The notes under the pieces: model-generated
What the model was told of the DNA's origin: nothing
The model's input: only the letters and a program-made list of their open reading frames with translations
The model's database searches: none
IMG/VR virus record: IMGVR_UViG_3300042558_002668
Location: 1-64,000 of that record
Strand: one strand, 5' to 3'
Length of the DNA stretch: 64,000 nucleotides
Source: a virus
Translations under genes and position numbers: made by a program
Shown here: positions 8,182 to 31,012 of the stretch, piece after piece
How positions within the stretch are numbered: the first letter of the stretch is position 1
Layout: the number at the start of each line of letters is the position of its first letter

Positions 8182-8453
8182 GCTGCCTCCAGCATGTTGG
8201 CGGGAACCTTGAACAGAAGTTGACCAGTATCAACTGTCACAAACTTGATGGCAATTTTACGAACGGTGCCACGATAAGTCACACCGTTTCGGTTACTGGT
8301 AAACTTCACAGTGTCGCCCAACATGAGACTGCGTTTGGTCTTCTGTGTGAGCTGAGCTCGGGCAAAGCGAATTGCATCACCAATGCTGGTGAGTTGATCA
8401 TTTGTAAACGATCCAGAAAGAATTGCACGATTGATGTCTTGAATAGTGGTCAT
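8178..8453 (-). CDS. Small KOW-like conserved phage protein (91 aa)
   Basis: The C-terminal half (LMLGDTVKFTSNRNG, then YRGTVRKIAIKFVTVDTG) looks like a KOW/SH3-like beta barrel of the kind that binds RNA or ribosomal partners; the N-terminal half is helical. The family is common in T4-like phages and uncharacterised. Start at 8453 is chosen from GGAG six bases upstream. Similar barrel-like small proteins occur at 37964-38206 and 38199-38465. Confidence 0.65.
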   Translation of the reverse strand: MTTIQDINRAILSGSFTNDQLTSIGDAIRFARAQLTQKTKRSLMLGDTVKFTSNRNGVTYRGTVRKIAIKFVTVDTGQLLFKVPANMLEAA

Positions 8454-8465
8454 TGTTGTCTCCAA

Positions 8466-8792
8466 TTAGTCTGCACGAGAATTCATGTAAGCGTCAATGC
8501 CATGTTCACGCAGAACTTTGGCATAGGCTTCAGCACCAGCTTCTTTGATGTCCATGCTTTGTGTAAAACTACCACCAGGATTCCAAAAGCTTAGACCGCC
8601 GCCGTATTCTTTGCGGAACCCCACGGTCTTGAGTGCACGGCCCAGTTTGGTTGATGCTTTTTCACGCACTACAACCCAGGCAAATCCACAGTAGCCAGGC
8701 TCGCCGTGACGGGCACGGAACTCGTTCTCGGCTTGGATAGCGGCCTCTCGGGCAGTGTTATGAATAGATTCCAAGTTATCTAAAGCAATCAT
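8466..8792 (-). CDS. Conserved phage protein (108 aa)
   Basis: Contains ARHGEPGYCGFAWVVVREKA and LKTVGFRKEYGGGLSFWNPG, an uncharacterised family that I have seen described in many large phages. Soluble alpha/beta protein. Start at 8792 follows AAGGAG; the longer in-frame start lies inside the promoter. First gene of the run to 7262, behind the promoter at 8823-8851. Confidence 0.7.
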   Translation of the reverse strand: MIALDNLESIHNTAREAAIQAENEFRARHGEPGYCGFAWVVVREKASTKLGRALKTVGFRKEYGGGLSFWNPGGSFTQSMDIKEAGAEAYAKVLREHGIDAYMNSRAD

Positions 8793-8798
8793 CTCTCG

Positions 8799-8854
8799 CT
8801 CCTTTTTGTTTACAATACAAGTATTATAGCAAATGATCAGATTCTGGTCAACCA
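8799..8854 (-). repeat. 56-bp promoter/leader repeat, copy A
   Basis: Identical to 9130-9185. It covers the ribosome-binding region, leader, -10 and -35 boxes, so two adjacent operons share the same control sequence. Confidence 0.9.
8823..8851 (-). promoter_or_regulatory. Sigma-70 promoter (TTGACC-17-TATAAT)
   Basis: Minus strand TTGACC at 8851-8846, 17-bp spacer ending TTTGC, TATAAT at 8828-8823. The -35 overlaps the stop codon of the preceding gene. Drives 8466-8792 and the following genes. Confidence 0.85.
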
Positions 8855-9123
8855 AATTCGTACATGAATTTGGACATATTTGGATCCAATTTGACTAGAT
8901 CCTTAGCGGCCGCTGTCAGGGCACGATAGCGAGCTTGAACTTGGCTACGGGGCAACTCACCATCGCAAGAAAGATTTTCTGGGCTCAAGGCACAATCAAT
9001 AGCCTCAGCCACTCGTTTCCGTCCTGCGGCAGTTTGAATTTCGTACAAGGGTTCGGTACGCTGACCTTTGAACAAACTAGCCCAGCGATTTTGTTGATCA
9101 ACCCAGGTGTTAAGTGCTTGCAT
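8848..9123 (-). CDS. Hypothetical helical protein (91 aa)
   Basis: All-helical by eye, with LTAAAKDLVKLDPNMSKFM near the end and a Trp-rich N-terminus (WVDQQNRWASLF). AAGGAG precedes the ATG by seven to eight bases. Behind its own copy of the repeated promoter (9154-9182). No family known to me. Confidence 0.65.
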   Translation of the reverse strand: MQALNTWVDQQNRWASLFKGQRTEPLYEIQTAAGRKRVAEAIDCALSPENLSCDGELPRSQVQARYRALTAAAKDLVKLDPNMSKFMYEFG

Positions 9124-9129
9124 TTCTGA

Positions 9130-9185
9130 CTCCTTTTTGTTTACAATACAAGTATTATAGCAAATGATCAGATTCTGGTCAACCA
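9130..9185 (-). repeat. 56-bp promoter/leader repeat, copy B
   Basis: Identical to 8799-8854; see that entry. This copy additionally has the TGTTGTA hairpin just upstream (9193-9210). Confidence 0.9.
9154..9182 (-). promoter_or_regulatory. Sigma-70 promoter (TTGACC-17-TATAAT)
   Basis: Minus strand TTGACC at 9182-9177 and TATAAT at 9159-9154 with a 17-bp spacer; drives the gene at 8848-9123. Confidence 0.85.
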
Positions 9186-9192
9186 GAATCTG

Positions 9193-9210
9193 TGTTGTAT
9201 TTTTACAACA
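9193..9210 (-). terminator. Hairpin TGTTGTA-AAAA-TACAACA before a promoter
   Basis: Seven-base-pair stem with an A-rich loop, just after the stop at 9216 and just before the next promoter. The same hairpin-promoter pairing recurs at 10050-10106 and 40522-40579. Confidence 0.65.
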
Positions 9211-9215
9211 ATTAT

Positions 9216-9416
9216 CTAGGCTCGTACTAGGTCAAAAATTGAATTCTGCAGGCGGGCCACATCTTCGTTGTCAACATAGAAGTCGGTACGTGGATCCCAG
9301 TACTCGCCTGCCTTTGGATCATAATACAACACCTGACCGTTGGGATAGTGAAAAGGTCCTTCAAGTCCTGCACGTGGACCGTATTCATTGCCGTGTTTGA
9401 AAACTCGATATCCCAT
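9216..9416 (-). CDS. Conserved phage protein (66 aa)
   Basis: Beta-rich and aromatic: MGYRVFKHGNEYGPRAG, then YYDPKAGEYWDPRTDFYVDN. The start at 9416 is chosen because AAGGAG stands eight bases upstream; a GTG three codons earlier is also in frame. Resembles short uncharacterised proteins of large myophages. Downstream gene in the unit that begins at 10017. Confidence 0.65.
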   Translation of the reverse strand: MGYRVFKHGNEYGPRAGLEGPFHYPNGQVLYYDPKAGEYWDPRTDFYVDNEDVARLQNSIFDLVRA

Positions 9417-9421
9417 GTTAT

Positions 9422-9574
9422 TCACTCCTTGACAAATTTCACGCCAGATGCCATGACCATCAACCCAAACGATGATATCAATGCTGAATAAAACAAATCA
9501 AGGTCAGACAGACTTTTTTCAATTCCGCCCACGCCCGACATCACTATAATCAATCCAAGAATAATTCGAATCAT
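9422..9574 (-). CDS. Small membrane protein (50 aa)
   Basis: Encodes MIRIILGLIIVMSGVGGIEK and onwards, ending GVKFVKE. Two hydrophobic segments (residues 3-17 and 27-42) separated by an acidic turn, a hairpin in the membrane. Its ATG overlaps the upstream stop (ATGA), and its 3' end carries the AAGGAG used by the next gene. No family recognised. Confidence 0.6.
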   Translation of the reverse strand: MIRIILGLIIVMSGVGGIEKSLSDLDLFYSALISSFGLMVMASGVKFVKE

Positions 9575-10017
9575 GATGCCTCCGCTACTTTGATTGACTC
9601 CAGTGCTTGGCTCAACAACACCAAGCGACCTTTGAACTCGCCGTACATGCTACCACAGTACCATTCACCATTTTCCATGATGTAGTAATACTCTCCGCCA
9701 CAATTGTCTACCTGTTCCAGAAATTCAGCAAAAGTGTGTGCCACTTTAAAGTCGGTACCAGTCTCACCGCGGTCACGACCGTAAAACACTGTGGTGCCAG
9801 GCAAGGGCTTTTCAAAACTGTGATCAACGCCATCGGGAACCAGGATGTTTTCGCGCAGAGTAGACAAATCACCCAGTGCCACCAGGTGATTGGCTTTGGC
9901 GCTGTTATAGTGCTCTTGCAGGATTGTCCCATTGTGCTCCAAGTAGCCGTCCCAGTGACAGTAGACTGACTTGCAAACTGTACCATGCATGACACCAATT
10001 CTTGAACGTGTACCCAT
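9571..10017 (-). CDS. Conserved phage protein (148 aa)
   Basis: MGTRSRIGVMHGTVCKSVYC and CHWDGYLEHNG mark a family present in many large phages and some prophages, of unknown function; the rest is alpha/beta with a Tyr-rich segment GGEYYYIMENGEWYCG. AGGAG seven to eight bases before the ATG and a strong promoter at 10050-10078 make it a first gene. Coupled to the small membrane protein downstream. Confidence 0.75.
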   Translation of the reverse strand: MGTRSRIGVMHGTVCKSVYCHWDGYLEHNGTILQEHYNSAKANHLVALGDLSTLRENILVPDGVDHSFEKPLPGTTVFYGRDRGETGTDFKVAHTFAEFLEQVDNCGGEYYYIMENGEWYCGSMYGEFKGRLVLLSQALESIKVAEAS

Positions 10018-16900: not shown

Positions 16901-17656
16901 TTAATCAATTGCTTGGCTGACTAGATGCGCCCAGGCTCGATTGGTTTCAATGCCCGGATGGAATTTATCACCGTTGTAGTCGTTGGCTGCATAAGCCATT
17001 TCATAGATACCGTTGCGTTGCGAATCAGAGAAAATCCATCTTGCCCAGTCTATGTCATGAATCAAGGGCTGTAGTTCTGGATATTTCAGCACACCAAAAT
17101 CTCCATTGGGACTACAATGATCTTGATGGTGCCAGTAGTTCACATAGCTCATGAAATGGTAGGGTATGCCCCGAGCTTTGAGAAAATTCTGAGTTTTAAC
17201 AATCTCCAGGAGATTGGTATGAGCCAGACTGAGATTTGAGCTAACACGATACATAGGCTTGAACAAGTCTGTAGCATCTGAATTCAATGTCCAGGGACCA
17301 AGAAACCCACCACTAAAAATATAGCCTAGGGTATTAGGGCCTGACTCCATCCGTCGATAAAACTTGTATCTATCAAACAGTGCATGCAAGCTGGGTGTGC
17401 TGATGTCAGTTAAAAAATCTAACCTGCTAACGCCCGACCACATGATCAGCACATGATCTGTTGTGCCAGGATTTTGTAACACGTGCCTAACTACACTGTT
17501 GGCTATGTACAGGTTGCCTGCGCCAGGCTCAGCTAGATTAGTAATCTCAAAATCTGGGCGCAGTTGTTGTAATGGAGTGGGCCAACATACATTTTTCGGA
17601 CTGCCTGGATGTTCGGGCCAGTGTGTAAAACTGCAACCAGATATGAGTATTTGCAT
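16901..17656 (-). CDS. SGNH/GDSL-type hydrolase
   Basis: 251 aa. Start MQILISGCSFTHWPEH: the SGCSF segment is block I with the nucleophilic Ser; EPGAGN supplies the block II Gly and Asn; the Asp/His block V is likely GDKFHPGIETN. The family comprises esterases and acyl-hydrolases, often acting on O-acetylated glycans. In-frame codons before 17656 run into pstS, so this start, 13 bases after the pstS stop, is preferred. Probably co-transcribed with pstS from the Pho promoter. One of four clear SGNH proteins in this window. Confidence 0.7.
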   Translation of the reverse strand: MQILISGCSFTHWPEHPGSPKNVCWPTPLQQLRPDFEITNLAEPGAGNLYIANSVVRHVLQNPGTTDHVLIMWSGVSRLDFLTDISTPSLHALFDRYKFYRRMESGPNTLGYIFSGGFLGPWTLNSDATDLFKPMYRVSSNLSLAHTNLLEIVKTQNFLKARGIPYHFMSYVNYWHHQDHCSPNGDFGVLKYPELQPLIHDIDWARWIFSDSQRNGIYEMAYAANDYNGDKFHPGIETNRAWAHLVSQAID

Positions 17657-17669
17657 TTTTGTGTTTGAT

Positions 17670-18674
17670 TTACTTGATCTGTGTCCAAACACGCTCACGG
17701 ATCTGTTTTGTCAAACTGTCCGGCAATGCTACATAGTCTAAGTCTGCGGCATCTTTCTTGCCGTTCTTAAATGCCCAATCAAAGAACTTTAGTACTTCAT
17801 CACTGTTAGCTTTGTTGGCAGGAGTCTTATACATGATAATGAAACTTGCTGAACTCACAGGCCAAGCATTAGGATTCTTTTGATCCACAATACTCAGGCC
17901 CATACCAGGCACGCTAAACCAATCAGCACCATCTGCGGCTGCGGCAAATGTTAAGTCATCTGGACTAACATACTTGCCACTCTTGTTCTGTAGTTGTAGG
18001 AATGTCATATTGTTTTTCTTAACATACGCATATTCTACATAACCTATTGAACCTTTGATGCGGTTCACGTTGGCAGCAACACCTTCATTGCCCTTGCCAC
18101 CCACTGAACTAGCAGCAGGCCATTTAACAGCAGCGCCACGACCTACACGTTGTAGCCACTCAGGACTTACTGTGGCCAAATAGTCTGTCCAATTGAATGT
18201 TGTTCCACTACCGTCTGCACGATGTACAATGGTGATGTTTTCGTTAGGCAGGTTCTTACCTGGATTCAATGCTGCTAATTTAGGATCATTCCACTTGGTG
18301 ATGTTGCCCATAAACACTTCGGCCATGACTGGTCCAGTGATGCGTAGTTCGCCTGGCTTGAAACCGTCTAAGTTGACAACAGGAACTGTTCCGCCAATGA
18401 TGGCAGGAAACTGTACTTGTCCCATCTTGTCTAAGTTCTCACCACTGACAGGTGCGTCTGTAGCACCAAAGTCTACGGTCTTTGCGTTGATTTGTCTAAT
18501 ACCACCTGAACTACCGATGCTTTGATAGTTCATACCAGTACCTGTGGCTTTTTTGTAGCCTTCAGCCCACTTGGCATAGATCGGAAATGGGAAGGTAGCG
18601 CCTGCTCCAGTAATGTCTGCGGCTTGTGCTGACATTGTTAATGCGGCTAATAAAATTGCTAGTAATTTGTTCAC
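17670..18674 (-). CDS. pstS: Phosphate-binding periplasmic protein PstS
   Basis: 334 aa with a signal peptide (MNKLLAILLAALTMSAQA). ADITGAGATFPFPIYAKW is the PstS N-terminus; SIGSSGGIRQI and DFGATDAP line the phosphate site; HRADGSGTTFNWTDYL is the second loop. It captures phosphate for the PstCAB transporter, which must come from the host since no other pst genes are visible. GTG start with AAGGAG seven bases upstream. Between it and the glycosyltransferase gene lies a Pho box with a -10 at fixed spacing. Phage pstS under PhoB control is established for cyanophages. Confidence 0.97.
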   Translation of the reverse strand: MNKLLAILLAALTMSAQAADITGAGATFPFPIYAKWAEGYKKATGTGMNYQSIGSSGGIRQINAKTVDFGATDAPVSGENLDKMGQVQFPAIIGGTVPVVNLDGFKPGELRITGPVMAEVFMGNITKWNDPKLAALNPGKNLPNENITIVHRADGSGTTFNWTDYLATVSPEWLQRVGRGAAVKWPAASSVGGKGNEGVAANVNRIKGSIGYVEYAYVKKNNMTFLQLQNKSGKYVSPDDLTFAAAADGADWFSVPGMGLSIVDQKNPNAWPVSSASFIIMYKTPANKANSDEVLKFFDWAFKNGKKDAADLDYVALPDSLTKQIRERVWTQIK

Positions 18675-18700
18675 GGTGAATCTCCTTGTTGTGACAAACT

Positions 18701-18735
18701 TATTTAGGCTAAATCATGTTACAATTTTGTTACAA
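18701..18735 (-). promoter_or_regulatory. Pho box and promoter of pstS
   Basis: Minus strand: two direct repeats TTGTAAC (18735-18729 and 18724-18718) 11 bp apart, separated by AAAA, then exactly 11 bp to TAAATA (18706-18701). This is the spacing of PhoB sites upstream of PhoB-dependent promoters. The same architecture occurs at 20362-20396. Confidence 0.8.
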
Positions 18736-18737
18736 AA

Positions 18738-19454
18738 CTATGACCAGTATTTAGATGAATCTAACCGGTCCCAATATGCTTTATTGTTACGGTTGACAAA
18801 ATTTTTGATTAGGTATTTGCCCATGCCAAGATATCCCATCTTTTTGAATCTACGACTATCCTGCCCAAAGTGATGACGAACAATTCTAAACTTTTTAGGA
18901 CTGTATTTGCGACTTAAGAAGAAATCTTCGCTGGTGGAAAACTGTTCAGGGAAGCCGCCAAACTCTTCAAAACGATCTCTGCGTGTTAGCATAAATGCTC
19001 CAACGGCAAAAGGGGAGAAGAATTTTAGTGTGTGATTGATTACGTTAAATGCTGTAAATCCAATCATGGCTCTTGGGTCTCGATCATAACATTTGATGTT
19101 TAATCCAATGAGGTCTAGATTCCTAGACTCTATCATATTAACAGCATCGTGGATAACAGTATCCTTGAAGAAGCGAACATCAGCATCAATGAACAAGATG
19201 TAAGGAGTAGTGACTAGCTTGGCTCCGCGGTTCTTTGCAACAGATACAGGACCACCGTCGATAACTTCAACATTCAGTTCACCTTTCATTATTTGAATAA
19301 CTTCGCGTGTGTTGTCGGTTGAGCAGTCAGCAATGATAATTCTGGTGTTGCCTATGGATTGCTGACGCAAGTGCATTAGCAAATGTGCAATGTAGTTTTC
19401 CTCATTCTTGCAAGGAACTACAATGGTAATTTTATCGCTTATTGTCGTTTGCAT
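18738..19454 (-). CDS. Family 2 glycosyltransferase
   Basis: 238 aa. GT-A fold with VPCKNEENYIAHLL (nucleotide-sugar strand), IIIADCSTDNTREVI, FIDADVRF (DxD-type metal site), and GGFPEQFSTSEDFFLSRKY (acceptor ED motif). Residues 125-155 are hydrophobic and may contact the membrane. It lies 21 bp after the PlcP-like gene in the same transcript; in phosphate-starved bacteria PlcP is paired with a glycosyltransferase that turns diacylglycerol into glycolipid, so that role is proposed here. Glycan-modifying activity is an alternative. AAGGACA precedes the ATG. Confidence 0.85.
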   Translation of the reverse strand: MQTTISDKITIVVPCKNEENYIAHLLMHLRQQSIGNTRIIIADCSTDNTREVIQIMKGELNVEVIDGGPVSVAKNRGAKLVTTPYILFIDADVRFFKDTVIHDAVNMIESRNLDLIGLNIKCYDRDPRAMIGFTAFNVINHTLKFFSPFAVGAFMLTRRDRFEEFGGFPEQFSTSEDFFLSRKYSPKKFRIVRHHFGQDSRRFKKMGYLGMGKYLIKNFVNRNNKAYWDRLDSSKYWS

Positions 19455-19475
19455 TGTCCTTCTACCTTAAAATTA

Positions 19476-20357
19476 TTAAACTTTAGCTGCCATTTCATTG
19501 ACGCCAAGGTCATCTCGCAACTTAGTTGATCTTTGAATGTTAGTTCTATTCTTCCGGGAATGTCCTGAGGGTTGTTCACGTGAACTGCTATCAGTATCAG
19601 TAGCCACATTGTCTTTCTCCTTGGTCCAAGTTATAATTTCCCAACGACCGTCCCAGTGTTCCACCAGTGCTGTACAGGATTCAACCCAATCACCGTCATT
19701 CATATATGCTACGCCGTTGATCTCTTTGATCTCTGCATGATGTATGTGTCCACAGATGACACCATCAAATCCACGTTTCTTGCAGTAGTTGGCCAAGTTT
19801 TCTTCAAACTTGAACACAAAGTCTACTGCTTTTTTAACCTTGTACTTAAGATAACGGCTAAGGCTCCAGTAGCCAAACCCCAAGCGACGACGTACCCAAT
19901 TAAACTTATTGTTGAGTTCAAGAACAAAGTCATACGCTTTATCTCCCAGAAATGCTATCCATGGTGCCAGACGGGTAATGCCATCAAACAAGTCTCCGTG
20001 TACCACAAGATAGTGCTTACCGTCTGCACCTATGTGCTCTGTCTGATTGTGTATTTCTATTAGGCCAAATGAGAAACCATACGGTATCATGGGTCTTAAG
20101 AACTCATCGTGATTACCAGCAATGTACACAACGCGAGTACCACGCTTGGCATGCCCCAGTACTCTACGTACCACATTGGTATGACTTTGTTTCCAACGCC
20201 ATTTGTTTTGCTGTATCTTCCATGCATCTATTATATCACCTACTAGATATAATGTATCACATGAGTTGTGTTTGAGAAAGTTGTTGAGACGATCGGCTTG
20301 ACAATCTTTGGTTCCAAGGTGGACATCACTGACAAAGATTGATCGATAAGTCTTCAT
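19476..20357 (-). CDS. plcP: PlcP-like metallophosphoesterase (phospholipase C of Pho-type lipid remodelling)
   Basis: 293 aa. Calcineurin-like motifs in order: SDVHLG (10-15), VGDIID (39-44), GNHDE (81-85), VVHGDLFDG (about 117-125) and GHIHHAEI (about 207-214), then YMNDGDWVESCTALVEH. This full pattern is that of the COG2908 subgroup annotated as LpxH-like but shown in Sinorhizobium and marine bacteria to be PlcP, which removes phosphate head groups from phospholipids. Context supports PlcP over LpxH: a Pho box directly upstream, a glycosyltransferase after it and pstS next. The C-terminal 45 residues are charged and disordered. No Shine-Dalgarno; TAAATA ends four bases before the ATG. Confidence 0.8.
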   Translation of the reverse strand: MKTYRSIFVSDVHLGTKDCQADRLNNFLKHNSCDTLYLVGDIIDAWKIQQNKWRWKQSHTNVVRRVLGHAKRGTRVVYIAGNHDEFLRPMIPYGFSFGLIEIHNQTEHIGADGKHYLVVHGDLFDGITRLAPWIAFLGDKAYDFVLELNNKFNWVRRRLGFGYWSLSRYLKYKVKKAVDFVFKFEENLANYCKKRGFDGVICGHIHHAEIKEINGVAYMNDGDWVESCTALVEHWDGRWEIITWTKEKDNVATDTDSSSREQPSGHSRKNRTNIQRSTKLRDDLGVNEMAAKV

Positions 20358-20361
20358 CTAG

Positions 20362-20396
20362 TATTTAAGACAAAGACTGTTACAACTTTGTTACAA
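20362..20396 (-). promoter_or_regulatory. Pho box and promoter of the plcP-glycosyltransferase pair
   Basis: Minus strand TTGTAAC at 20396-20390 and 20385-20379 (11-bp period), 11 bp to TAAATA at 20367-20362, then CTAG and the ATG. Layout identical to the pstS promoter; the transcript would start at or next to the start codon. Confidence 0.78.
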
Positions 20397-20417: not shown

Positions 20418-21263
20418 CTACTTTTGACTCAGGTGTTCTTTTGCCCGAGTTGCCACCCAATCAGCAGTGATTAAATCAAAGTGATGGCCATCACGTGCAC
20501 GATCTCGAGATTTAACTGGCACAACTGTGGCATACACTGATTGACGTTTTGCCAAATTGTCTCTGAGTTCGTCTAGTCTTCCGTGTAAATTTTCTAGCTC
20601 GTGTAATATCCAATCCGGTAATGAATTTAATTCTTCTACAGTAGCTGGAAAATTTACTGGCCAATCTGAGCCACGCATTGACTCCCAGGCATCAAGAATT
20701 GAATTACGGCAAAAAAAAGGTATTGCAAACTGCACAGAGTTTGCAATCAAATCAACTCTTTTTTTGCAATCTAAAAAATTTACCCAGTCGTCGTGATCAG
20801 TGCTGTCAATATTGTGAATTCTTCGAAGCTCGTCACTGAGTAACGTATTGGCATTTTCCCGACGATGCGTGTAACTCCACATTATTGCAATCTGCGTAGG
20901 ATCTATAGCGTGAACAATGTTTTCTGTGATTCTTGCAATCCATTCATTACTGGCACCATCCATTGATACATTTATGATACGTTGATTGGCAGCAGTTGAC
21001 AACAGATATGGCCAGGTGTGTTCTAAAGGAGAACCCAGCCCCACAGTAAAGCTGTCACCAATACACCACACAGCGTCACGCAGGTCTTGCATGTTATCTG
21101 GCCATTCTTGATCACGAAAGCCGCGACTGTTGTAGTTGTATGTTATGCTATGTGGATAAGATAAAAAGTGATTCTTATCCTTGCAATGATCAAAAGAATC
21201 TATTCCTGAAAATTCACAGTGCTGATTTACACGACTAGACAGTACTAAATTGTGCAATATCAT
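20418..21263 (-). CDS. SGNH/GDSL-type hydrolase
   Basis: 281 aa. AVWCIGDSFTVGLGSP is block I; NVSMDGASNEWIARI has the block II/III Gly and Asn; ARDGHHFDLITADWVA carries the Asp-His pair. An N-terminal region of about 60 residues ends in YNYNSRGFRDQEW, the NSxGFR segment seen before block I in many SGNH proteins. A TTGTAAC/TTGTGAT pair abuts the ATG (21264-21281), so Pho control is possible. Between ahpD and plcP, same direction. Substrate unknown. Confidence 0.75.
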   Translation of the reverse strand: MILHNLVLSSRVNQHCEFSGIDSFDHCKDKNHFLSYPHSITYNYNSRGFRDQEWPDNMQDLRDAVWCIGDSFTVGLGSPLEHTWPYLLSTAANQRIINVSMDGASNEWIARITENIVHAIDPTQIAIMWSYTHRRENANTLLSDELRRIHNIDSTDHDDWVNFLDCKKRVDLIANSVQFAIPFFCRNSILDAWESMRGSDWPVNFPATVEELNSLPDWILHELENLHGRLDELRDNLAKRQSVYATVVPVKSRDRARDGHHFDLITADWVATRAKEHLSQK

Positions 21264-21281
21264 ATCACAATTTTGTTACAA
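21264..21281 (-). promoter_or_regulatory. Possible third Pho box
   Basis: TTGTAAC (21281-21275) and TTGTGAT (21270-21264), 11 bp apart with an AAAA linker, just before the ATG at 21263. No good -10 follows at the 11-bp distance, so it may be a relic or act differently. Confidence 0.45.
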
Positions 21282-21791: not shown

Positions 21792-22420
21792 TTTCTTTCC
21801 TCTATATTATAAAACCAATCATCCCCGGCTGTCCACTTGCGTGTGCCATCCACTGTGAATATGGTCTGAGCAGCCTTGAAATCGGGGAATTTCACTGCAC
21901 TGGAAATCAAACTTTGATCATACCACAAACAACGATTGTTGGGTTGGCAAGCAAACTGCCCATTTTCCAATCGGATAAAGTTAAAGCTCTTGTGTTCTTC
22001 AGCCACTTCAGTAAAGCCTGTGTCCACATCCATGCCGTCGGCACAGAAGTCTACTGTGAACAAATAGGTTCCGTGATGCCATTCTTTGTCTTTGCCCAGG
22101 AACTTCACTCCTAAATTACGCAGGCCTATTTTTTCAATGATAGTAAAACGATAGCCCATACAATCCCAGAGCTGTAGCGTATCTATAGGCAAATTGCCTG
22201 TGTGGTTTTCTTGCCACACATAAGCATGAATAGGCAATTTGTCGTACAGTGCTCCGTAGTTGGGTAACAAACTTTCAATACGAAACACCTGCCCTCGCAA
22301 GGCTTTGAGACTGACCCAGATAGCGGGTTCCAATTCACCGTGACCTTTTTCAAAGTTATAAAGAAACTCACGTTTTACCCAACACTTGACAGGAGGCAAT
22401 GATCCTACAATGTAACTCAT
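21788..22420 (-). CDS. Conserved phage protein (210 aa), unknown
   Basis: Aromatic-rich, beta-dominated protein beginning MSYIVGSLPPVKCWVKREFL; includes DTLQLWDCMGYRFTIIEK and LFTVDFCADGMDVDTGFTE, and ends with TAGDDWFYNIEERK. I associate it with an uncharacterised protein of T4-like cyanophages. No enzymatic motif. Coupled by overlaps to the small SGNH gene before it and ahpD after it. Confidence 0.7.
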   Translation of the reverse strand: MSYIVGSLPPVKCWVKREFLYNFEKGHGELEPAIWVSLKALRGQVFRIESLLPNYGALYDKLPIHAYVWQENHTGNLPIDTLQLWDCMGYRFTIIEKIGLRNLGVKFLGKDKEWHHGTYLFTVDFCADGMDVDTGFTEVAEEHKSFNFIRLENGQFACQPNNRCLWYDQSLISSAVKFPDFKAAQTIFTVDGTRKWTAGDDWFYNIEERK

Positions 22421-22827
22421 TTTGTTTTCTCCGCTATTGTTTTATAACCCTTGTATGTAGGATGCACTTGATCCAGACTGGTATCATGCTTTTTAGCATC
22501 GATTACAAAATCCTTGTACTTGTCTGCTATTGCAAGAACTGCTCGTCTTTTATCTTCTTTTATGTTAGGCACAATCCAATAAACACGATCAGCCTCAACA
22601 AGTTGCCTGATTGTATCTAATTCTTCAAATGTGTTTATCTTTGCTGTGTCGTTTGACCCTAAACTAATAATCACAGTTTTTGCTTTGGTGTTTCCTTGTG
22701 TGTATAACACATGACGATTCACATAGTCATAACTGTTAATACCACCCTTAGCGTAAGTGGCACATTCAGTTCTAATCTGTCCTATACCAACTGCTAGGCT
22801 ATCGCCTAGAATCAAACATTCTAACAT
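22417..22827 (-). CDS. Minimal SGNH hydrolase (136 aa)
   Basis: Complete compact SGNH set: LILGDSLAVGIG (Ser), AKGGINSYDYV (Gly), ISLGSNDTA (Asn), LDQVHPTYKGYK (Asp-His). At 136 aa it is among the shortest versions of the fold. Esterase or lipase-like activity expected. Start lies two bases after the stop of the aldolase-like gene and has no strong ribosome site. Confidence 0.75.
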   Translation of the reverse strand: MLECLILGDSLAVGIGQIRTECATYAKGGINSYDYVNRHVLYTQGNTKAKTVIISLGSNDTAKINTFEELDTIRQLVEADRVYWIVPNIKEDKRRAVLAIADKYKDFVIDAKKHDTSLDQVHPTYKGYKTIAEKTK

Positions 22828-24425: not shown

Positions 24426-25570
24426 GTTCTGTCGGGGAAAAAATCCTGCATCACACCTTCTCGATGCAAGTCCATGGTAACACAATGTATGCCGCCATCC
24501 CAGAAATATCTATGACGGAAAGGTACTATGTGCGGAGTCATGCCATATCGGTCTAGTGCATCAAAAACTTGTTTGTTGTAGTTGAATACTATAACGTTCT
24601 TTGGGTCAATAATCAACATGTTGACATCAAACACGGTTTCTTCAACGTACCCTGTCCAATTATCCAACCAAGTCTCTACTGTTTCCACAACATCGTTGTC
24701 GTGTTCAAATCCTGGGATCCACCACTTGCCTTTGTTTTTCTCTTTGAGAATCATAAAAGGTTTTACTTTTTCCCAGCTTTGGTTTTCCAAATAAATCACT
24801 TCCCAGCCCGGGAATGTGTTTTTGTAAGTGGGCACATCATTGAGACTGACTATCAATCCTGGACACACTGGGCAGTATACTGCATCGCCGTGGCCACCAG
24901 TGTTGACAATATGATTGCGAGTTTTGGGGAATCTTGAATTTACAAATTTCTGTTGTTCAACAATATTGTCAGTGTAGTTTTTTGTGGCAAAATACAAATC
25001 CTTGCCAATTCGAGATATCATTGCACCGTTGATCAGTAGGGGATTGTTTGAGTAATCAATTACTGGGTTTCCTTGCTGCCGAATATGGTCAAATATATGA
25101 TCGTATCCAGACCTCTGATTCATCCAGGCTCGTTCGCGATCAAACCCAAATTGTTGTATGCATTCAAGCCGAATACGATCAGGTAATTTATCAAAGTCCT
25201 GCCAAGTCTCGCAGTCAGGCCAGCTGGCATCACGAATAGTGTTATAGAGTTTTGCAACTGTAGTTGGCGCATAAGACTGATAAAAATCATTACCAACCAT
25301 GACCATAAAATCTCGTGGGGTCATTGGCGGCGGAGTAAACTTGCCATTCACAGTTTCAATCTGCTCCGGCAAGTTGGGCCGCATCACAGTGATTCCAAAA
25401 CTTTTTAATTTTTGAATAATTGCCTGGTAGTCTTCTTCAGTTTCAATTGCAATTTTTTCAAACAAGGATCGAACATGTGGTATTTGAATCCAACTGTAAA
25501 ATTCCGGAGGATAGCTTTGGCCAACCACACAGACTTTGAGTGGATCCCAGTGCTGATAAACATTATACAT
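24422..25570 (-). CDS. Amidinotransferase-fold enzyme (first copy)
   Basis: 382 aa. Pentein fold of the glycine/inosamine amidinotransferase and arginine-deiminase type: opening WDPLKVCVVGQS, central GGHGDAVYCPVCPG with the catalytic His, and C-terminal WDGGIHCVTMDLHREG with the nucleophilic Cys. Known enzymes move an amidino group from arginine to an amine. Its length is close to that of GATM. It overlaps the uvdE stop by eight bases. A shorter paralogue lies at 28349-29269. Product unknown; guanidinylated sugars or polyamines are possibilities. Confidence 0.85.
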   Translation of the reverse strand: MYNVYQHWDPLKVCVVGQSYPPEFYSWIQIPHVRSLFEKIAIETEEDYQAIIQKLKSFGITVMRPNLPEQIETVNGKFTPPPMTPRDFMVMVGNDFYQSYAPTTVAKLYNTIRDASWPDCETWQDFDKLPDRIRLECIQQFGFDRERAWMNQRSGYDHIFDHIRQQGNPVIDYSNNPLLINGAMISRIGKDLYFATKNYTDNIVEQQKFVNSRFPKTRNHIVNTGGHGDAVYCPVCPGLIVSLNDVPTYKNTFPGWEVIYLENQSWEKVKPFMILKEKNKGKWWIPGFEHDNDVVETVETWLDNWTGYVEETVFDVNMLIIDPKNVIVFNYNKQVFDALDRYGMTPHIVPFRHRYFWDGGIHCVTMDLHREGVMQDFFPDRT

Positions 25571-26585
25571 TTATAAATTTATTTGCAAAGGCATGACTAG
25601 CTAGATTTTTACCCTTGGCCTCGCACTGAATATCAAACTGTTCACTAAACTCGGCAGCCCAAGTGCTCACAGCGTCATTCCAATAAAAGTCGCTGTGTGC
25701 TCGGAGCTTTTGCTTTTTATAACCTCTAGCAAGAAGTTCAGCAAGATCGGGTCTAGTTCCCCGATCATGGTCCACCAAAACGTCTTCGCGACTAACTGAG
25801 TAGTGAAGACCAGGACGAGTACCGCGCCAAGAGTCAATAACCCGCTTGACACGATCGTCCTGCGGGGAGATGTATTCTCCTGAGTTGATCCAGTGGTGGT
25901 GTAGATCCAATACCAGAGCCACATGCTGAGCCACAGCCAAAGTAGTGTCAAGTCCATTTGTCATCTCATCATTCTCGATGGTAATTAAGTTTCTTGCTTC
26001 GGGACTGAGCCTACCCAGTGTACGCAAGAATTTAGTGGCACCACCTTTGCCACTTAAATGTACGTTGATCTTGAATCCATGATCATGCCATGTCGAACCA
26101 TAGCCCATCCAACGAGCCATGTCTGCATGATACTCAAATTCCAAGATTGAACGTTCTACAATTTCATCTGCTTCGCTTGCCAGCACACAAAATTGCCCAG
26201 GATGAAAGGATAATCTAACACCAAGTCTGCGAGCAGCTTCACCAACTGGTGCAAAAATTTTAGCACAATGATCTTGCACATCCTTTTGTTTCCACCAGTT
26301 GATCCACGAAGGCTCTGTATAGCCCTGCAACATTTCGCTGCCTAGTCGTACCATGCGCAGGTGCTCAGGTAAACTGCCCACACGCTCAACCATTTTAAGT
26401 GCGGCAGAGGCATTGTGATTCATAATGTCCCACTGGCGCTGTTCAGCTTCGTCTTTGTGCTCACGAAGCCAGCGCATTGTAGTTGATCGCCCGTTAAGGT
26501 CTCGATCTACTGCATTGACTTTCATGCCGCCACATTCACTTGGATCATTAAGCCATTTGCAACAGAATCCAACACGAGGTACCAT
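25563..26585 (-). CDS. uvdE: UV damage endonuclease UvdE/UVDE
   Basis: 340 aa. TIM-barrel nuclease of the UVDE family: VPRVGFCCKWLN start, RLSFHPGQFCVLASE, ILEFEYHADMARWMG, HDHGFKINVHLSGKGG, ITIENDEMTNG and LVLDLHHHWINSGEY, together giving the His/Glu/Asp metal ligands. It nicks 5' to pyrimidine dimers and starts excision repair. ATG at 26585 (MVPRVGF) has GGGA six bases upstream and avoids the 43-base overlap of the longer frame. Likely protects phage DNA in sunlit water. Confidence 0.92.
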   Translation of the reverse strand: MVPRVGFCCKWLNDPSECGGMKVNAVDRDLNGRSTTMRWLREHKDEAEQRQWDIMNHNASAALKMVERVGSLPEHLRMVRLGSEMLQGYTEPSWINWWKQKDVQDHCAKIFAPVGEAARRLGVRLSFHPGQFCVLASEADEIVERSILEFEYHADMARWMGYGSTWHDHGFKINVHLSGKGGATKFLRTLGRLSPEARNLITIENDEMTNGLDTTLAVAQHVALVLDLHHHWINSGEYISPQDDRVKRVIDSWRGTRPGLHYSVSREDVLVDHDRGTRPDLAELLARGYKKQKLRAHSDFYWNDAVSTWAAEFSEQFDIQCEAKGKNLASHAFANKFINV

Positions 26586-26602
26586 AGCAATTCCCGGTAA
26601 AG

Positions 26603-27160
26603 TTATTTTGTTAGTAATTGTAACACGTTTTCCATTATATCGCAAGTGAGATTTGGCAATTCTTGGTAATGTTTACCAAGATCAACAGCGTGATCTACCA
26701 GAACGTATTGTGTAGTAGGGTTATTCTGGAACAAACTGCGCATGAGTCCATGATAATTTTGTAGTTGTTCAACTTGGTCAGATGATTCTAATTTCTGACC
26801 CAACCCAAGATCAAACCCCAACATCAGTATGATGCTGTTGGTTTGGCTGGCCAAGTGCAATGATATAATGTCATCAAATCTGTGAACTGGATGGTTGTAC
26901 TCACCATCATATGCTTTGAGGCCTGGCTGGCTACCAATTTTTAGATATACATCACGAGCAACGTAAAAATTGCACACAGCATGAAATGCCTTGGAAATTA
27001 ATGCATTTGCCTCAGCTGAGTCTGAGCAAACTACATTGTCTGTTTGATTGTTTTTCCAGGTGCGCCACGATCCCCAGCTGGGACCAATTGACTTGATGGC
27101 TGCTGTGTCAACCAATATGTTTGGTTGATATGTTGATGCATATACCCAACTTATTTGCAT
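26603..27160 (-). CDS. Hypothetical phage protein (185 aa)
   Basis: Start MQISWVYASTYQPNI overlaps the fibre-like gene stop (TAATG). Contains IKSIGPSWGSWRTWKNNQ, CNFYVARDVYLKIG and ILMLGFDLGLGQK, a Rossmann-like alternation of strands and helices, but no cofactor motif that I can name. Coupled position between the fibre-like protein and uvdE. Confidence 0.65.
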   Translation of the reverse strand: MQISWVYASTYQPNILVDTAAIKSIGPSWGSWRTWKNNQTDNVVCSDSAEANALISKAFHAVCNFYVARDVYLKIGSQPGLKAYDGEYNHPVHRFDDIISLHLASQTNSIILMLGFDLGLGQKLESSDQVEQLQNYHGLMRSLFQNNPTTQYVLVDHAVDLGKHYQELPNLTCDIMENVLQLLTK

Positions 27161-29269: not shown

Positions 29270-29784
29270 TTGTGTCCAGTAATCTGAAGAGTGTATCTAG
29301 GAGTAGTTCCTAGATTGGCTGCCAGGTGTGGTGTATCATACGACCACTCAACAACATCTCCAGCACGCCAATTTATATAGGGTTTGCCATTGCCTTCAAA
29401 GTAATGCCCCGACTGCCAATCTTCTAGAAATATAATTGCTCTCCGAATTGACTGTTCTTGTCCTTGAAGATTAAACAAGTCAATATATTTCAGATATAAA
29501 TCACTGTGCGTAGGAAGTATGGTGCCAGTGCCCATTCTGTAGTAACTTGTGCCAATATCTTTCCAGCCCAGTAATGTGTAAAAGTCAATAAAAAGATTGT
29601 TCCACTTTGGTTGCCGGCTACGCATATCACACATGTCACCAGTAAACTTATTGGTGTATCCTAACGACAGCCAGTTTTCGAGACTGACCGAGTCGTTGAA
29701 TGTTTCGTTGATATACTCTAAGTGTTTAAATTCATCATCCCAAAAAGCAGGAATGTGATACTTAACTAACTCGTGTGTTGCCAT
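29266..29784 (-). CDS. 2OG-Fe(II) dioxygenase-like protein
   Basis: 172 aa. Double-stranded beta-helix features: ILPTHSDLYLKY gives HxD, DTPHLAANLGTTPRYTLQIT gives the distal His and the 2-oxoglutarate-binding Arg; WRAGDVVEWSYD is the strand before the distal His. Members hydroxylate amino-acid side chains or small molecules. Substrate unknown. Overlaps the UDP-glucose dehydrogenase gene by 23 bases and the next gene by four. Confidence 0.65.
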   Translation of the reverse strand: MATHELVKYHIPAFWDDEFKHLEYINETFNDSVSLENWLSLGYTNKFTGDMCDMRSRQPKWNNLFIDFYTLLGWKDIGTSYYRMGTGTILPTHSDLYLKYIDLFNLQGQEQSIRRAIIFLEDWQSGHYFEGNGKPYINWRAGDVVEWSYDTPHLAANLGTTPRYTLQITGHK

Positions 29785-31012
29785 AATGAATCACAGTTAT
29801 TCCTGGAATATTGGCAATTTTGCGCCAGGGGTCAACAACAACTGATCCGGGTTTGATATCACAATACGGCTGGGTGTCTTCTTGATCACCGGTGTATTCG
29901 TAAGTGATTTTACGGTTGTGTGCCCAAAGAAACACAGCAGGAGTATCAACAGCAGTAACCACATCAGCAGGATCGTCAGCTAAAGGATCTACATATTTGA
30001 CCTGTACTCCCAGTTGTTTGAGATAGTGTCCAACCAAAGTGCTGTAGCTGCCAATACAGTATGGCACATCGGGTTTGTAGGCTTTGCCGTGAATCACAAT
30101 GGGCAAGATCTTTTGGTCCTGGGTGGCAGTGTCAAACAAAAATTTGGCAAGATTTTTTGCTTGAATTTCTCTAGCATGCATCACAGTATCAAATAGGTCG
30201 TAGCCGATGTCGTACTCTTGTGCCAGCCAACGCAGTGCAATGTTGTCACGTGGATGGCAAGCACCTGCATCGCCCATGCCAGCTGTCATGTACTTAGGCC
30301 CCATGATACGCATAGTACTACGAGCTAGTGCATCGGTTACAACATCAACATTGATGTGACCAATTTTCATAGCAAAGTCTTGAATCATGTTGACCAAGCC
30401 AACCTTGGCGCTGATAAATGTGTTGTAGAATATTTTAATGGCTTCGCATTCATCCCAGGTACCAATCTCATAGCGCGGATTGTTCTGCATTATGCTCTTG
30501 TAGATCTCCACAAGCTCGTTGGCCAATGCATTGGGATTGCCGTCCTCGGTTCCGATCATGATCATTTCTGGATTGACCATGTCCCACTTAACTGACCCCA
30601 TGGCAATCAAATACGGATTGTATAAAAATTGATGTTTTTTATCCAACAATGGCACAAAGTGTTTCCGAGTAGTTCCGGGTAGTACAGTGCTGATCAGCAC
30701 AATCTTCTTGGGAGTTGTTGCGTGGGCATTGATTTTCTCAATAGCATCTTTAACAGCATCATGTCCAAAGTCTTTTGGAGTCATGTGACTAGATGGAACA
30801 CTGCCATCATACCCTTCTTGGTGTGGGGTTGGTACTGCTATAAAGATCCAATCACTGTTGTTTATGGTGTCTTCAATGCTGCAAACTTCTACCTGGTCAC
30901 TTTGTCTTGGGTAAATATCATACCCGAAAACTTTATATTTCTCTGCAAATACTTCTGCACAATCTAGGCCAAGTTTGCCAAGACCAATAAAACCCACTTT
31001 GATATCGTTCAT
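29762..31012 (-). CDS. UDP-glucose/GDP-mannose dehydrogenase family protein
   Basis: 416 aa. NAD-binding GFIGLGKLGLDCAEVF at the start; IFIAVPTPH and LISTVLPGTT in the first domain; GMGDAGACHPRDNIALRW contains the catalytic Cys (GxxCxxxD-type); VIHGKAYKPDV opens the C-terminal domain. It oxidises a UDP-hexose to the uronic acid in two NAD-dependent steps. UDP-glucuronate could feed surface glycans or, if the glycosyltransferase at 18738-19454 makes lipids, glucuronosyl lipids (speculative). AGAGGAA seven bases before the ATG. The start codon overlaps that of the divergent gene at 31011. Confidence 0.87.
   Translation of the reverse strand: MNDIKVGFIGLGKLGLDCAEVFAEKYKVFGYDIYPRQSDQVEVCSIEDTINNSDWIFIAVPTPHQEGYDGSVPSSHMTPKDFGHDAVKDAIEKINAHATTPKKIVLISTVLPGTTRKHFVPLLDKKHQFLYNPYLIAMGSVKWDMVNPEMIMIGTEDGNPNALANELVEIYKSIMQNNPRYEIGTWDECEAIKIFYNTFISAKVGLVNMIQDFAMKIGHINVDVVTDALARSTMRIMGPKYMTAGMGDAGACHPRDNIALRWLAQEYDIGYDLFDTVMHAREIQAKNLAKFLFDTATQDQKILPIVIHGKAYKPDVPYCIGSYSTLVGHYLKQLGVQVKYVDPLADDPADVVTAVDTPAVFLWAHNRKITYEYTGDQEDTQPYCDIKPGSVVVDPWRKIANIPGITVIHYGNTRVS

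Follow-up and report, generated by a model that had tools for sequence, protein, structure and literature searches.

We identified a three-gene cassette in a 64,000-nucleotide stretch (the window, positions 1 to 64,000) of the 80,138-base IMG/VR virus record IMGVR_UViG_3300042558_002668, which quite probably serves a phage for lipid remodelling and phosphate uptake under the control of the host regulator PhoB and feeds phage DNA synthesis. It comprises plcP, coding for a 293-aa metallophosphoesterase, a gene for a family 2 glycosyltransferase (GT2) 21 bp behind it, and pstS, coding for a phosphate-binding protein (Table 1). An earlier sequence-only reading of the window had proposed these three open reading frames (ORFs), and all of them were present on the minus strand where it had placed them. 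PlcP and Agt are known to remodel membrane lipids in phosphate-starved SAR11, roseobacters, Agrobacterium and Pseudomonas (PMC4796936, PMC8231724, PMC9239053); Agt, the known lipid-remodelling glycosyltransferase, is a GT4 enzyme (PMC8231724).

The phosphoesterase matched the Pfam Metallophos family (41.7 bits, over cut-off), and its metal-ligand motifs DVH, GD, GNHDE, HGD and GHIH were conserved. The sequence-only reading had assigned it to PlcP and suggested a phylogeny with PlcP and LpxH proteins. A tree of 63 proteins separated 17 LpxH sequences with 100/100 support from a PlcP-type set of phage, SAR86, pelagiphage and 30 bacterial members, and the phage protein fell on the PlcP side. All LpxH proteins contained GNRDF, whereas the PlcP-type set contained GNHDE or, in a few members, GNHDD. 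Scores against two curated LpxH models were 44.9 bits (cut-off 134) and 33.7 bits (cut-off 190.35). Tree, motif and scores together ruled out an LpxH identity, and by its sequence the phosphoesterase is of the PlcP type, as first assigned; it is predicted to cleave membrane phospholipids to diacylglycerol. SAR86 genomes encode both proteins, a true LpxH elsewhere (281-287 bits) and a GT2-linked paralogue that scored ~41 bits with the LpxH model. The PlcP-type family was present in 149 of 398 sampled Pseudomonadota genomes. A GT4 adjoined plcP in seven of the nine bacterial flanks readable around this gene, and the GT4s examined had Agt motifs, as in the plcP-agt arrangement already described (PMC4796936, PMC9239053).

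The glycosyltransferase matched Pfam Glycos_transf_2 (68.3 bits, over cut-off), and the GT-A hallmarks FIDADVRF (with DxD at residues 90-92) and SED (residues 175-177) were conserved, including in SAR86 sequences. Membership in the Agt family was ruled out by the GT2 assignment and by the lack of the motifs GRVAxEKN and FPSxTDTFG; TIGR04283, the best NCBIfam match, was also rejected (65.3 bits versus a cut-off of 182). The main evidence on its role came from the slot behind plcP. In a set of 90 distinct phage plcP genes whose flanks were long enough, this slot was occupied by GT2 in 63 and by an Agt-like GT4 in 27, never by both and never by neither, although GT2 is over-represented in this count, some of the loci having been retrieved with a GT2 query. 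An independent scan that started from phage GT4 found 72 of 80 genes adjoining plcP, four ~1 kb away and four truncated, and none with GT2. These phage GT4 proteins carried the Agt-like motifs SRVSKEKN and FPSxWETFG. When the partner label was mapped on the plcP tree, 19 changes were counted, compared to a shuffled mean of 23.7, and well-supported branches force at least three of them; judged from this tree, GT2 and GT4 partners have thus been exchanged repeatedly, the exact number being uncertain. This alternation of GT2 and Agt-like GT4 in the same slot supports the view that GT2 does the job of Agt without belonging to the Agt family. Since a GT2 (GT-A) enzyme stands in place of a GT4 (GT-B) enzyme, a different (beta) linkage is predicted.

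Cellular homologues of the GT2 were rare. Scanning 84,980 species genomes (GTDB) with two conserved peptides revealed clear relatives only in two SAR86 genomes and in one 3-kb contig of a metagenome-assembled genome. Within the SAR86 order, five of 203 genomes contained the GT2, each with an adjacent plcP. The pair was divergently adjoined by phoX in all four flanks inspected, and phoD occurred nearby in at least one (phoX was confirmed by Pfam in one genome; the other phoX and further phoD-like ORFs were assigned by sequence likeness). No O-antigen genes were recognised beside the GT2 in SAR86. These homologues next to plcP and phoX, together with the slot shared with Agt-like GT4, agree with the earlier view that the glycosyltransferase is of a lipid type and not of an O-antigen type. 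The SAR86 GT2 is 61-64% identical to the phage enzyme; unlike the phage cassette, the SAR86 operon is cellular, has GT2 first and overlapping plcP, and has no adjacent pstS. The gene order of SAR86 also occurs in marine phage contigs, where the GT2 is 80% identical. The SAR86-type GT2-plcP pair was seen in marine viral contigs L341 and L342, in the former between hemE-like and CHASE2/adenylate-cyclase-like genes (sequence inspection only). Distant GT2 homologues (~30% identity; L296-L298, several bacterial genomes) lie directly before a gene for a DedA-like membrane protein (sequence inspection), a possible lipid link.

The third gene was identified with high scores as pstS: its product passed the cut-offs of NCBIfam NF008171 (400.2 versus 339 bits) and TIGR00975 (369.5 versus 205 bits) and contained the phosphate-binding motifs GAGATFP, IGSSGG and RADGSGT.

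Two promoters of identical layout had been described in the sequence-only reading. The repeats, the 11-bp distance and TAAATA were found at both, but the spacer AAAA occurs only at pstS, that of plcP being AAAG. The PhoB motif scan suggested there showed an excess of tandem repeats: YTGTNAY-N4-YTGTNAY occurred four times in the window (one of them an opposite-strand palindromic overlap) versus 0.47 expected, and none of 100 shuffles reached four. A weaker third repeat, TTGTAACAAAATTGTGAT (21264-21281), lies immediately next to the start codon of the ORF at 20418-21263, where TAAATA would not fit in between; it is probably due to chance. In relatives, a tandem box with at least 13 of 14 positions matched was located exactly 11 bp before TAAATA, among distinct genes, in 50 of 55 cases for pstS and in 62 of 151 for plcP. 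The same combination was absent directly upstream of GT2 (0/69) and GT4 (0/77) and preceded 23 of 384 other TAAATA-preceded ORFs, some of which are nearby small genes and some maybe alternative ORFs of the same promoters. Half-sites of the pstS promoters vary (TTGTAAC, TTGTAAT, TTGTCAC, CTGTCAT) at a fixed spacing; CTGTCAT is the E. coli Pho box half-site.

TAAATA was the most sense-enriched hexamer upstream of phage genes (277 of 1004 sense, 67 antisense) and separate from a TATAAT class (166 versus 64 antisense). It resembles the T4 late element TATAAATA, the full form of which is absent at the plcP and pstS promoters, where only the TAAATA core is present. The gp55 late-sigma family (phrog_234) was found in 10 of 12 large relatives. 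The predicted PhoB boxes of the earlier promoter reading stood; TAAATA is better described as a phage-type, T4-late-like element than as a host sigma-70 -10 element. Because TAAATA is the phages' own T4-late-like element and the gp55 family is present in relatives, both promoters look like hybrids of a host PhoB site and a phage late-type element, to which PhoB may bind and at which gp55 may act; this hybrid character had escaped the sequence-only reading. As only 4 bp separate TAAATA from the ATG of plcP (most box-bearing relatives are similar, 1-8 bp), the plcP mRNA is predicted to be leaderless or near-leaderless. Behind plcP-GT in relatives, we observed small families of a 217-aa MRFEDLAARLVAVEAKL type and a 117-aa MCHKHTNHKELKMK type with their own Pho-like box and TAAATA (examples in Table 1); these boxes at small unknown families suggest a wider phage Pho regulon.

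From the computed results (gene identities, PlcP rather than LpxH, Pho box/TAAATA geometry, GT2/GT4 exchange and the phosphate-starvation context in SAR86) we infer enzyme activities, a diacylglycerol acceptor, PhoB binding, gp55 use and a benefit to the phage, which would combine in the following way. In a phosphate-starved host, phosphorylated PhoB would occupy the two tandem Pho boxes and recruit RNA polymerase, probably with a late sigma factor of the phage (gp55-like), to the TAAATA next to them. One transcript would yield PlcP and GT2 and the other PstS. PlcP would split phospholipids into diacylglycerol and a phosphate-bearing headgroup, and GT2 would use a nucleotide sugar to convert diacylglycerol to a phosphate-free glycolipid, keeping the membrane intact. 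Headgroup phosphate, after further hydrolysis by the host, and phosphate captured by phage PstS via host PstCAB would both enter phage DNA synthesis. By a rough estimate, a 350-kb genome contains ~7x10^5 phosphates versus several million phospholipids per small cell, and therefore the gain could cover several genomes. A narrower proposal is tentative, and we regard it as possible: that joining a PhoB site to a gp55-type promoter lets a host regulator activate a phage sigma factor, and that this soluble GT2 family, to which no role had been assigned, consists of beta-diacylglycerol glycosyltransferases interchangeable with Agt, with phospholipid turned into phosphate for phage DNA.

Several observations weigh against a lipid-remodelling and phosphate-uptake cassette. 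The phosphate set free is not a direct PlcP product, which is a phospho-headgroup; the proposal in the sequence-only reading that a lipid switch releases phosphate for phage DNA is accordingly supported as to the lipid swap and not as to direct release. Diacylglycerol as the acceptor of GT2 rests on gene context, and the enzyme lacks the Agt motifs. For this enzyme, AlphaFold gave a weak model (predicted local distance difference test score of 62) that supports no more than a GT-A fold. The structure-based search proposed earlier returned generic GT2 enzymes, including GtrB and dolichyl-phosphate mannose synthase. The pstS gene was only an occasional neighbour, located near plcP in 18 of 85 distinct relatives, and in ~59% of distinct plcP relatives a complete tandem box with the fixed spacing was missing. 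Predicted phage Pho boxes are also not always functional, some having failed electrophoretic mobility shift assays (PMC10976474).

Among other explanations, an envelope change would use the same enzymes: remodelling could keep competing phages from adsorbing or from delivering their DNA, or alter the physical state of the membrane for lysis or assembly, with Pho control marking the state of the host. Glycolipids formed by phosphate-starved Caulobacter change phage adsorption (PMC6445935), and an effect of lipid remodelling on adsorption in P. aeruginosa has been mentioned as unpublished (PMC9804370). However, the recurrent pairing with pstS and the shared promoter type favour phosphate supply, and PlcP and the glycosyltransferase are predicted to be cytoplasmic, with the inner membrane as their first target, so that we consider this explanation improbable, though it is the strongest of the alternatives. 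We think it somewhat less probable still that TAAATA drives constitutive expression of the cassette along with the late genes, the repeats being relics or sites of another regulator. TAAATA serves these phages as a promoter element in general, and many plcP relatives keep it without the full tandem box (112 of 151 distinct relatives have TAAATA, versus 62 with both), yet the pstS promoters retain both half-sites at fixed spacing in 50 of 55 cases even though the half-sites themselves vary, which argues against this explanation.

A further explanation is modification of lipid A, O-antigen or surface glycans by an LpxH-like hydrolase and an O-antigen-type glycosyltransferase. Phage homologues of the phosphoesterase are labelled UDP-2,3-diacylglucosamine hydrolase in database records and some weak matches of the GT2 are GtrB-like, but the exclusion of LpxH, the GT2/GT4 exchange and the SAR86 operon beside phoX, where O-antigen genes were not recognised, make this explanation highly improbable.

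The phage cassette resembles the cellular PlcP-Agt system in having a PlcP-type phosphoesterase gene followed directly by a glycosyltransferase gene, with a Pho box upstream; it differs in being phage-borne, in its GT2, in the phage TAAATA element and in the attached pstS. Cyanophages such as P-SSM2 and S-PM2d carry pstS under host PhoBR control (PMC10976474), and the pstS promoter described here is likewise predicted to be of a host-PhoB type. However, some cyanophages pair pstS with phoA rather than with a lipid-remodelling pair, and the cyanobacterial Pho box is unlike the tandem box coupled to TAAATA. Pelagibacter phage Mosig EXVC030M (MT647606) shares the phosphoesterase family (50% identity), encoded divergently from a phosphate-binding protein gene; unlike in our cassette, no glycosyltransferase is adjacent, and the annotation of the gene is that of a lipid A enzyme. 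The announcement of the Mosig genome makes no mention of phosphate or lipid.

Phage pstS under PhoB (PMC10976474) and an unremarked plcP-like gene near pstS in Mosig are thus already known. The sequence-only reading knew of no phage with the complete set; plcP near pstS was already public in Mosig, there with no glycosyltransferase. No phage plcP-glycosyltransferase pair was found in full-text literature, most subscription papers and bioRxiv lying outside its coverage. Lipid remodelling in infected cells has been called little known (PMC12282109), and plcP is unmentioned in a 2024 survey of phosphorus-acquisition genes of soil phages (PMC10987575). A pattern search of IMG/VR detected 443 viral stretches with GT2 and 417 with Agt-like GT4. 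If the phosphate-supply reading is true, a large virus of aquatic bacteria may draw phosphate from host membranes, and the host membrane would be a phosphate store drawn on by phages that are widespread in IMG/VR. The GT2 would be a candidate new family of diacylglycerol glycosyltransferases with a sharp prediction, a beta and not an alpha linkage, and the promoters raise the question of whether a response regulator of the host is able to drive a sigma factor of the phage.

Table 1. Elements of the phage cassette (window coordinates) and examples of small genes in relatives (contig coordinates)
Feature	Position	Strand	Basis or remark
plcP-type calcineurin-like metallophosphoesterase, 293 aa	19476..20357	minus	Pfam, motifs, tree, glycosyltransferase neighbour; predicted phospholipase C on membrane phospholipids
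GT2 (GT-A type) glycosyltransferase, 238 aa, 21 bp behind plcP	18738..19454	minus	Pfam, motifs, gene context; predicted diacylglycerol glycosylation
pstS, periplasmic phosphate-binding protein, 334 aa, GTG start, signal peptide	17670..18674	minus	NCBIfam, motifs
plcP Pho box, TTGTAAC AAAG TTGTAAC	20379..20396	minus	Sequence, conservation in relatives
plcP TAAATA promoter element, 11 bp after box, 4 bp before ATG	20362..20367	minus	Sequence, hexamer enrichment
pstS Pho box, TTGTAAC AAAA TTGTAAC	18718..18735	minus	Sequence, conservation in relatives
pstS TAAATA promoter element, 11 bp after box	18701..18706	minus	Sequence, hexamer enrichment
pstS Shine-Dalgarno, AAGGAG	18682..18687	minus	Sequence
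Small-gene examples	L052:6807-7463, L137:7990-8643, L097:7930-8283	plus	Pho-like box and TAAATA

The contig further encodes a ribonucleotide reductase, DnaB-like helicase, primase, DNA ligase, head proteases, tail proteins, UvsX and a UvsW-like helicase. Among cultured phages, the nearest helicases, at 46% identity, are those of Agrobacterium phage Atu_ph07 and of PA5oct-type jumbo phages of Pseudomonas. Since cassette-bearing relatives reach 340-367 kb, the 80-kb contig probably represents part of a jumbo phage genome. A UDP-glucose dehydrogenase-like protein (29762-31012) had been suggested as a supplier of UDP-glucuronate for the lipid. It is located ~9.4 kb from the cassette, has no Pho box and scored 141.7 bits versus an NCBIfam cut-off of 189.8; it is co-localised, and the link is unsupported. 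A similar gene was present in seven of 12 large relatives, all with cassette genes and usually 5-10 kb apart from them. The N-terminal stretch of the protein in the window matches another NAD-binding family.

SGNH/GDSL-like proteins adjoin the cassette (window positions 16901-17698, 20418-21263 and 22417-22827; by sequence, with a Pfam GDSL match for the 136-aa protein only), and a UvsE-like homologue of UV damage endonuclease lies at 25563-26645 (90 bits versus a family cut-off of 124). One phage contig apparently contains two plcP-GT2 cassettes (L075:2163-3785 and 8293-9783), the second of which has diverged (51% and 68% identity).

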